From Cephaloticoccus sp. (lineage in GTDB: Bacteria; Verrucomicrobiota; Verrucomicrobiia; Opitutales; Opitutaceae), in the NCBI GenBank assembly GCA_030833445.1, contig JAURHD010000001.1, forward strand, positions 124,001 to 188,000: a stretch of 64,000 nucleotides of DNA, written 5' to 3'. Under the pieces are notes generated by a model. The model was not told the DNA's origin, did not search any database, and saw only the letters and a list, made by a program, of their open reading frames with translations. Below are positions 29,197-36,656 of the stretch, one piece after another; position 1 is the first letter of the stretch, and every line of letters starts with the position of its first letter. Both the position numbers and the translations under genes were made by a program.

Positions 29197-30798
29197 TCAA
29201 GCATCCAGCAATCGGCGCACCGCCCGGAGCAGTTCACTCAGGGCAAATGGTTTGGGCAACGACATCTGGTGTTCGACCGGCAACCAGCGGAGGGTGCGTT
29301 GGGCATTGTGATTGCAGGCATTGAGCACGCGCAGGTCGGGTTCCGCCTTGTGCAAGGTCCGGGCCAGTTTTTCGCCTTCCGGAGTCAGATTGACCACGAG
29401 GATTCGCACCGGCTTCGGTGAGGTCGCCGCGCGGGACTTGCCCTCGGTTGAATTGGCTGCGTCCAGCGCCCGGTAACCGTCCGCCGTCAGCATGCCGGCG
29501 ACCATCTTGCGCAACACCTCATCCTCCTCGACGATCAGGACGACTTCATGACCCCTGGTCTCAGGCAGGGCTGGAATCGCCGGGGTGGGAGCATTCACCG
29601 GATATTCGGCCGGCTCGTTCACTTCAGGCAGGAGGATTTCAAACGTGGAGCCCACCAGCAGTTCACTGCGCGCGCTGATAAAACCGCCGCTCTGTTGCAC
29701 CACCCCGTAGACTGTGGCCAGACCCAGACCCGAGCCCTTGCCCGAAGGCTTGGTGGTGAAGAATGGTTCGAATAAACGCCCAAGGGTGTCGCGATCCATG
29801 CCGGTGCCATTGTCGGTGACCGTGAGCATTACATAACGACCGGGCGCGGCATCAGTCGCCCGCCGGTTTTGTCCCGCCTTTATCTCGCGGGTCGTCGTGC
29901 TGATGGTCACGCGGCCACGATCATGCAAGGCATCCCGGGCATTGAGCGTGAGATTAAGCAGCACTTGTTGAAACTGCACCGGATCGGTCCGCACGTGGGG
30001 CAGGCCTGATTCGAGTTCGAGTTCCAGTTTCCCCTTGTCGCCCAGCAAGCGGGTCAGGCCCTCGGCGTTTTCCTCGATGAATCGATTAATATCGATCACC
30101 CGGGGGACCATCGGCTGACGGCGGCCAAACGCGAGCAGCTGACGGGTCAGGTTGGAGGCCTTGCGCCCCGCATTATGAATTTCGGTGACGCTGTGCAGCG
30201 CGTCCGGATGCCCGACCAATTCCGGGGCGAGCATTTCGCAGTAGCCGTTGATAACCGAAAGCAGGTTGTTGAAATCGTGCGCGACCCCGCCGGACAGCCG
30301 GCCGACTGCCTCCATGCGCTGGTTGTGTCCCTCAATTTCCATCTGACCACGGCGCTCCGTGGTGTCACGGTAGGATGCGACCAACTGCTGCACCTCGCCG
30401 CGCGCATTCTTGATCGGACTGAAAAGCCAGGCCCCACTGAAGGTGGAACCGTCCTTGCGTCGGAGCGTGCTTTCGCCCGCCAAGGGTTGCTGCAGCTGCC
30501 TCGCCCGCAGCCATTGGGCGAGCCGAACTCGATCCCCCCGGTCCACATGGAGCAGCCCATGCGCCTGACCGGTCAGCTCATCCGCCGTGTAGCCGGACAT
30601 CCGGCAAAAGTTTTCATTGGCATACTCGATAATGAGGCCGTCCTTCAGCAACTTGCGACCAACGACAATGACTCCTTCGCCCAGCGAGTTCAGCGCCGCC
30701 GCCAGCTGGGCGGAGGAGGGCGGACGAGCCGCGCGCGGCTTTCGAGCACCACGGGTCTTGGGGGATTTTTTCAAGGTGATAGCCGCTCTACGGTCCAA
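29197..30798 (-). CDS. PAS-domain hybrid histidine kinase with degenerate C-terminal receiver
   Basis: PAS ([20 protein letters not shown]); H-box [20 protein letters not shown]; HATPase ([33 protein letters not shown]); C-terminal receiver-like region lacking the usual Asp. Confidence 0.88.
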
Positions 30799-34873: not shown

Positions 34874-35791
34874 TCAGGCCTTGCGACGACGACGCCAAAC
34901 GGCAAAGCCGAGGGCACCCAACCCAGCCAAGGCCGCATAAGTCGAAGGCTCCGGCACGGCCGAGACGCTTAGGTTATCGAAAGACATCTGCCCGGAGGTC
35001 ACGGCACTGCCGATGTTGTTCACCGAAGCCAGTAGCTCCAATGCGAAACCACCGTTGAGCGGCGGCTCATATCCCGCCTCGGCCCCATCGAGATCGTAGG
35101 TCGCACCCGTCAGAAAGGTCGATCCGCCGTCATTGCTGTAACTGGCCACCAGCACCTTGGTGTCAGCGTTAAAACTCATCTGCAGCAGCACATTGGTGCT
35201 GTCATTGGTGGCGATGTAATTGATGTGTGTGGTAAAGTCGTCGGTTCCGACATTATAGACGCCCCATTCCGGCACGATCCATATGGCTGCCGGAGCCGTG
35301 TTGACGGAAATGGTGTAGTAAGCGTTGAAGCCATTGGAACCGGAGGAAAACAGTTGCAACCCGGTGTTAGACCAACCGGTGGACAGGGACGTCAGATTGT
35401 TGGTAACCTCCACCTGGGCGACCCAGCTGGAGGTGTAAGGATTTCCCGTGGGCAAGCCTGTGCCACCAATACCGAGATTATTGCCGGAAGCCGGGCGGTT
35501 GTAACTAGTGGCTCCGGAAACCCAGTAGAGGAAGCTACGGTCAAAGCCCGACGTTACCGGGGTGGTGTATTCCATCCCTTGGTTGGTTTCAGTCCAAGTG
35601 CCGCTGCTCTCGGAATCATCCACGATACGCCATTGGCCCACCGCTTGGGGAATCGTTACACCCCCTGAAGTCATCAAGGTCAGGGTGTTGTCGTTAAAGT
35701 TGTCAGAGCCAAGGAAAGTCTGGGCAGAAGACGAGAGCACGCTGAACCCCAGCGCGGTGACACCGATAGCGGTGCGGATAATAACGTTCAT
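34874..35791 (-). CDS. PEP-CTERM sorting domain-containing extracellular protein
   Basis: Signal peptide MNVIIRTAIGVTALGFSVLSSSAQ; C-terminus VPEPSTYAALAGLGALGFAVWRRRRKA. Confidence 0.88.
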   Translation of the reverse strand: MNVIIRTAIGVTALGFSVLSSSAQTFLGSDNFNDNTLTLMTSGGVTIPQAVGQWRIVDDSESSGTWTETNQGMEYTTPVTSGFDRSFLYWVSGATSYNRPASGNNLGIGGTGLPTGNPYTSSWVAQVEVTNNLTSLSTGWSNTGLQLFSSGSNGFNAYYTISVNTAPAAIWIVPEWGVYNVGTDDFTTHINYIATNDSTNVLLQMSFNADTKVLVASYSNDGGSTFLTGATYDLDGAEAGYEPPLNGGFALELLASVNNIGSAVTSGQMSFDNLSVSAVPEPSTYAALAGLGALGFAVWRRRRKA

Positions 35792-35874
35792 AGTTTGTGT
35801 TGGGCGCCGGCCGGCATGGAGCGCGCGGCGGGCCAAGGACACAAACGGGGCCCTGCCCCAGCCACGATGCGCCG

Positions 35875-35911
35875 GTGACAAGCCGTCCGGTAAATGTGAC
35901 GAACCGTCCGG
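35875..35911 (-). promoter_or_regulatory. tandem direct repeats, candidate LytTR binding sites
   Basis: Minus strand CCGGACGGTTCGTCAC-ATTTA-CCGGACGGCTTGTCAC; 14/16 identity, 21-bp period, between the LytTR gene and the PEP-CTERM start. Confidence 0.55.
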
Positions 35912-35921
35912 ACGACGAGGT

Positions 35922-36656
35922 TCAGCCGGGTTGGGCGATCGCCGGCGGAAGTCGGAGCAACACCTCATCCCATCGCTCCCGGCTGACGGGCACAGCGGTC
36001 GCCATGCCTTTCATGCGCAACACGTATGCCTTGGGTCCCGCGTTTTGCCACGCCACGACCAACGGCAGATGCACCAAGGTCTGGCGGTGCACTTGCATGA
36101 AGCTTTGCGCCGGCAGTCGCTGCACCCAATCCTTCAGGCTGCGCCGGACCAATTCGCGGCTGCCATCCGCCAACCGGACGATCGAGTAGTTTTCCTGGGC
36201 TTCGATCACGAGAATATCGTGGATCGCCACCATGCGTTGGTGTTTTCCGGTGCGCAGCAGCACGAGATCCGCTTCCCGCAAGGGCGGGGAGGGCGGGGTC
36301 TGATCGGCCGGACGAGGCACCCGACGCAGCGATTCCGCCAGCCGTGACGCACTCACCGGCTTGATCAGGTAATCCAGCGCGTTGACCGCAAAAGCCCGCA
36401 CCGCGTGTTGATTGTGCCCCGTCAGAAAAATCACGCGCGCCTCCCGGCGCACATGGGGAATCAAGTCAAACCCATTGCCGCCCACCAGTTGGATATCCAG
36501 AAACACTAGGTCGTAGTTACCGCGCGCCAACAGCGTGCGGGCTCCCCGGACCGTGCCGGCCTCGCCCACAATTTGGACCATCGGGTGGGCGACCAGCATC
36601 CGGTGCTGAATCTTGCGGGCAGCCAAGTCATCTTCAATCAGGAGGGTGCGAATCAC
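35922..36656 (-). CDS. LytTR-family response regulator
   Basis: Receiver (LLIEDD, LVFLDIQLVGGNGFDLI, FLTGH, DYLIKP) plus LytTR DNA-binding domain (DILVIEAQENYSIVRLADG...FMQVHRQTLVHLPLV). Confidence 0.92.
   Translation of the reverse strand: MIRTLLIEDDLAARKIQHRMLVAHPMVQIVGEAGTVRGARTLLARGNYDLVFLDIQLVGGNGFDLIPHVRREARVIFLTGHNQHAVRAFAVNALDYLIKPVSASRLAESLRRVPRPADQTPPSPPLREADLVLLRTGKHQRMVAIHDILVIEAQENYSIVRLADGSRELVRRSLKDWVQRLPAQSFMQVHRQTLVHLPLVVAWQNAGPKAYVLRMKGMATAVPVSRERWDEVLLRLPPAIAQPG

Follow-up and report, generated by a model that had tools for sequence, protein, structure and literature searches.

Between a gene for a LytTR response regulator and a gene for a PEP-CTERM exported protein in Cephaloticoccus sp. 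lies a pair of short direct repeats, and the question that this locus raises is whether the pair is an operator through which the regulator controls its neighbor. We analyzed the surrounding stretch of 64,000 nucleotides (the window, in which all coordinates are given) together with related genomes, and the reading that we regard as probable from these comparisons is that the pair serves the PEP-CTERM gene as its own local operator, through which the adjacent LytTR regulator switches that gene on. The features concerned are the following.

35922..36656, minus strand: gene for the LytTR response regulator (244 aa, GTG start), with Response_reg and LytTR domains; an orphan and the presumed operator binder.
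35896..35911, minus strand: distal half of the putative operator, CCGGACGGTTCGTCAC, with the 9-mer ACGGTTCGT at 35899-35907 and the conserved octamer TTCGTCAC at 35896-35903.
35875..35890, minus strand: proximal half of the putative operator, CCGGACGGCTTGTCAC, 21 bp from the distal half, with the 9-mer ACGGCTTGT at 35878-35886 and the conserved octamer CTTGTCAC at 35875-35882.
35862..35867, minus strand: TCGTGG, a candidate -35 element (T-[CG]-G), its spacing conserved in relatives and its sequence far from TTGACA.
34874..35791, minus strand: gene for the PEP-CTERM exported protein (305 aa; PF07589), the presumed operator target.
34886..34960, minus strand: C-terminal PEP-CTERM sorting signal of that protein (residues 278-302; PF07589).

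The receiver and LytTR DNA-binding domains of the regulator both score above the curated cut-offs (PF00072, 8e-17, 61.8 bits against a cut-off of 30.2; PF04397, 7.6e-15, 55.4 bits against 22.6), and the phospho-acceptor machinery (acidic pair, Asp, Thr, and Lys, in EDD, VFLD, FLTGH, and LIKP) is intact when the translation is read by eye. The best NCBIfam match is BtsR, far under its cut-off (95 versus 246 bits). The 305-aa protein matches PF07589 (1.6e-7, 31.5 bits; cut-off 20.7), and the exosortase family PF09721 is found above its cut-off at three loci of the genome, so this protein has both the C-terminal signal and the exosortase in the same genome that mark a PEP-CTERM/exosortase substrate; the genome has 10 PEP-CTERM genes. 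The regulator gene's other neighbor runs divergently, and its 513-aa product has no match in Pfam.

On the minus strand, positions 35911-35875 read CCGGACGGTTCGTCAC-ATTTA-CCGGACGGCTTGTCAC, the two copies being 14/16 identical and having a 21-bp period. The repeat is 10 bp from the stop codon of the LytTR regulator on one side and 83 bp from the ATG of the PEP-CTERM gene (35791) on the other. An earlier note on this DNA had described two 16-bp direct repeats with a 21-bp period between the two genes, each containing a 9-mer and the 9-mers lying 12 bp apart; the repeats are there, and the gap between ACGGTTCGT and ACGGCTTGT, on the same strand, is indeed 12 bp. By eye, these 9-mers agree with the consensus [TA][AC][CA]GTTN[AG][TG] at 8/9 and 7/9 positions, which is weak by chance standards. 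In order-2 Markov versions of the window, about 0.5 pairs of 16-mers that are at least 14/16 identical at a spacing of at most 32 are expected per 64 kb (0.025 at spacing 21), and because comparable pairs are expected this often, the repeat alone is only suggestive; it is taken to be a real element because it is conserved at orthologous loci.

Orthologues were collected from 252 Opitutaceae genomes, 43 of which had a match at E<=1e-40, and 80 non-redundant LytTR genes were analyzed. The closest LytTR relative (64% identity; L035, the same as L114) is in a Lacunisphaera MAG that is taken to belong to the Opitutaceae. Its gene has TTCGTCAC-N13-TTGGTCAC after it, ahead of a homologous PEP-CTERM gene whose product is 64% identical to that of the window. 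Relatives with about 48-51% identity have the same arrangement with varying letters; half-sites are CTCGCCAC/CTGGCCAC in L005, TTCGCCAC/CTCGCCAC in L006, TTCGCCAC twice in L008, and CTCGTCAC twice, at 20 bp, in L033. A direct repeat with a period of 20-21 bp lies past the regulator stop codon in about 35 of the 80 family LytTR genes. The earlier note had staked its reading on repeats at orthologous loci, and they are present in the Lacunisphaera MAG and at more than 30 further LytTR genes of the family.

This pattern was also seen in a motif-free test, in which 9-mer pairs at least 8/9 identical were counted in the 200-bp regions downstream of the regulator genes: pairs at lag 21 occur in 27 of 79 regions, compared with a mean of 3.5 and a maximum of 7 at other lags, lag 20 (9 regions) being set aside (P ~2e-17, with loci treated as independent). 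Upstream regions of the same genes have no lag-21 peak (9/76; other lags up to 11). A profile scan gave same-strand downstream sites at 31 loci for lag 21 and at 0-1 for any other lag, strand, or side; its profile had been refined on these very loci at lags 20 and 21, which makes the scan partly circular and leaves the motif-free test as the independent one. Included in the 31 are L152 and L182, whose sites lie at least 200 bp downstream and are treated as probably spurious. In four further sites, the period is 20 bp and the repeat starts right after the regulator stop codon. The clade comprising L124, L131, L142, and L160 has a period of 20 bp, with the first half-site directly after the stop codon. 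A profile whose training set left out both the window and its nearest relative gave the window site, with 8.55, the highest score of any pair in the 64 kb at lags from 15 to 30; the runner-up scored 6.16, and the best other pair at lag 21 scored 3.08.

A downstream site is missing from about half of the 80 relatives, among them every member of two clades, and an opposing long open frame is often found there. Among 22 more distant regulators (the L010-L032 set), downstream pairs at lag 21 occur in 2, with no excess over other lags; these pairs resemble the operator or a variant of it (TTCGTCAC-N13-TTGGTCAC in L011 and CTCGCCCC twice in L026), and the motif is therefore not strictly limited to the closest orthologues. 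It was not found in 20 further LytTR loci, nearly all of which belong to other families of the class. Four of these extra-family loci (L232, L238, L224, and L239) have unrelated pairs with a 21-bp period after the regulator gene, possibly lineage-specific operators or chance occurrences and too few to interpret. Raw counts from a simple consensus scan of 95 relatives were rejected as uninformative because many matches look like in-frame coding sequence (of the Leu-Ala-Thr type, by eye) and G058 is full of GTCAC repeats.

The half-sites are of two types, A (GCCAC) and B (GTCAC), and on the regulator tree the type changes 3 times, compared with a mean of 11.5 and a minimum of 7 when the labels were shuffled 2000 times. 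Because spacers and flanks are poorly conserved, we read this co-variation as selection on the fit between regulator and site; shared ancestry of the DNA could contribute partly. The next gene after the operator usually encodes a protein predicted to be exported: at 27 site loci, it is a PEP-CTERM gene in 11 (one of which, L182, has a doubtful site), a gene with autotransporter-associated repeats (PATR) in 6, and one with a TPS secretion domain in 2, the rest including 2 FecR, 2 DUF642, and 2 iron-sulfur assembly proteins 400-500 bp off. In the clade of L154, L159, L165, and L139, an IscA/ErpA-like gene, in place of a surface-protein gene, lies several hundred bases past the operator. Target type varies among PEP-CTERM, TPS, and FecR inside one regulator clade, which suggests swapping of target genes. 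What the computation itself shows is the element, the conservation of its place, orientation, and spacing, the way it co-varies with regulator type, and what kind of genes follow it.

Across these loci, the half-site consensus is S-R-Y-T-S-G-Y-C-A-C, with YTSGYCAC as the most conserved stretch; in the profile, each of the positions for the second T, G, C, A, and C has 1.3-2.0 bits of information, and those nearer the 5' end have 0.3-0.8. The 9-mer proposed earlier was in the right LytTR register but stopped short of the CAC at the 3' end, and ACGG is its less conserved part. Judged from the sites compared here, the 3' CAC extension is the mark of the Opitutaceae half-site group. A conserved T-[CG]-G stands 7 bases past the proximal octamer and begins 10 nt 3' of the proximal 9-mer; it is found at these 10 nt in types A and B alike and reads TGGAC in most type A sites. 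A sigma-70 consensus promoter scan at the window operator gave no match, and neither the scan nor the comparison of relatives turned up a convincing -10 element at the operator. A LytTR site is generally made up of 9-11-nt repeats that lie 11-13 nt apart, and there is no common consensus (PMC4847170); in operons of the LytTR Regulatory System (LRS), the gap between repeats is mostly 12 bp, with a strong bias to a position 10 bp upstream of the -35 element (PMC6193735); the geometry of the window operator matches this closely. A GC hairpin followed by TTTGTG lies between the operator and the start codon at 35846-35860, and an imperfect 21-nt inverted repeat spans the leader (35793-35846); by eye, neither is obvious in L114.

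We infer binding, activation rather than repression, and the source of phosphorylation as follows. Two LytTR DNA-binding domains would sit on the two half-sites, which the 21-bp period, equal to two helical turns, would place on the same face of the DNA; the bound regulator would recruit RNA polymerase to a weak promoter with the -35-like T-[CG]-G element, and the PEP-CTERM surface-protein gene would be switched on. Family-wide, the module would run from LytS kinase to LytTR regulator, operator, and exported-protein gene, and in the window and its closest relative, the regulator would be driven by another phosphodonor.

The same regulator could instead bind the operator and repress the PEP-CTERM gene or limit read-through from its own gene. 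LytTR proteins can repress, as AgrA does at bsaA (PMC4227749), the position of the operator speaks only indirectly for activation, and there is no recognizable -10 element; however, the conserved -35-like element comes after both half-sites, at the distance of 10 nt that is typical where LytTR proteins activate, and repressor sites more often overlap the promoter, so we consider repression unlikely.

In the kinase that would go with the regulator, the window departs from its family. In most site-bearing relatives, a LytS-type kinase is encoded upstream of the regulator (that of L033 has 1046 aa, with a long N-terminal part that looks propeller-like, a reading from sequence only). No such kinase lies beside the regulator in the window or in L114, in agreement with the earlier note, which had found no kinase gene adjoining it; another phosphodonor must therefore drive the regulator in these two. 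The genome has only two PF06580 kinases, each beside another LytTR gene. A possible phosphodonor is the hybrid PAS-HisKA-HATPase-receiver kinase encoded at 29197-30798, which shares the strand of the orphan regulator and is some 5 kb away from it. The assembly, at 97.75% completeness, spans 2.9 Mb over 72 contigs, and with this many contigs, a kinase or second operator could sit in missing sequence. In the FxRxHRxxxxN stretch, the window regulator has Q188 and H196, and nearly all relatives have R and N; its DNA-binding domain has diverged by these two replacements, and with Q188 in the FxRxHR motif, its affinity for DNA could differ from that of its relatives.

A regulator that is substituted at a conserved position and has no kinase might be a mere bystander, the repeats being bound by some other protein such as one of the two other LytTR regulators of the genome, each of which has its own LytS kinase. 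Yet the site tracks the clade of the neighboring regulator and its sequence type changes along with it, and the two paralogues are distant (~35% and ~30% identity) with no such site beside either, which makes this reading very improbable. That the repeat is a chance pair, of which ~0.5 would be expected per window, or a relic of a terminator or stem-loop without regulatory role, as the terminator-like hairpin just downstream (35846-35860) and the ability of part of the repeat to pair in RNA might suggest, is hardly credible given that period, strand, and position are conserved at orthologous loci and that the RNA folds no better than shuffled versions (z -0.66).

Activation from the window site would be a strictly local affair. 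The operator was sought genome-wide by pattern searches, and strict and relaxed double patterns alike return the window site and no second operator in this genome, relaxed matches being no more numerous than those of reversed-pattern controls; a genome-wide regulon was accordingly rejected. Enrichment of the repeat pattern before PEP-CTERM genes, which the earlier note had thought to look for across the genome, was not borne out, the site being unique among 10 such genes. Because it is unique despite these 10 genes and three exosortase loci, we take it to be a private operator for one surface-protein gene, and judging from sequence, it is best described as a dedicated local operator and not as part of a regulon. 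Of the "local or autoregulated" control proposed earlier, the local operator for the PEP-CTERM gene is supported, but autoregulation is unsupported in the window, since the operator follows the regulator gene and has no second genomic copy. Other loci are laid out differently: in L142 and L160, an additional operator lies between the genes for kinase and regulator; L011 has two operators, which precede a PEP-CTERM gene and a second gene with an apparent signal peptide, respectively; and in L143, a long open frame has the operator at its start, and the 4.3 kb covered there include no LytTR gene.

The operators of AgrA, HdrR/BrsR, BtsR/YehT, and YpdB share with that of the window two repeats with a period of ~21 bp upstream of the target promoter; the Opitutaceae half-site differs from them in its conserved 3' CAC, in following the regulator's own stop codon directly, and in having exported and surface proteins as targets. 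BtsS/BtsR and YpdA/YpdB have the same receiver-plus-LytTR regulator, which the window's relatives likewise pair with a LytS-type kinase, but in the window, the kinase is absent and the target is the adjacent surface-protein gene, not a pyruvate transporter. The LRS, in which a LytTR protein is paired with a membrane inhibitor, has repeat spacing and distance to the -35 element in common with the window operator; the window regulator differs in having a receiver domain, in that no gene for a membrane inhibitor was seen next to it, and in that no site precedes its own gene. Proteobacterial PEP-CTERM genes are under two-component control by PrsK/PrsR through a conserved upstream site (PMC1569441); PrsR is an NtrC-like sigma-54 activator, and its predicted site precedes most of these genes (PMC1569441), whereas the window has a LytTR regulator paired with a single adjacent gene. 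No paper in the open-access literature searched, which is not all literature, names LytTR and PEP-CTERM together.

The locus provides a concrete operator sequence for this regulator family in a poorly studied phylum and suggests that exosortase (PEP-CTERM) and type V surface proteins may be controlled by a route unlike the proteobacterial, sigma-54-dependent PrsK/PrsR. Because half-site type and regulator clade co-vary across dozens of natural pairs, the set should be useful for studying how LytTR domains choose their DNA. A broader reading, for which we see about even chances, is that the Opitutaceae have an expandable set of self-contained sensory cassettes, each with a LytS kinase, a LytTR regulator, a private operator of 21-bp period, and one surface-protein gene; the surface protein (PEP-CTERM, autotransporter-type, or TPS adhesin-like) would be swapped while regulator and operator co-diverge, which would keep the cassettes insulated, and the window copy would be a cassette that has lost its kinase. 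At L007 and L175 (G029:C13 and G103:C93), LytTR genes stand in tandem with the operator variant TTCGCCCC-N13-TTCGCCCC before the second, an arrangement that would fit a regulator cascade.
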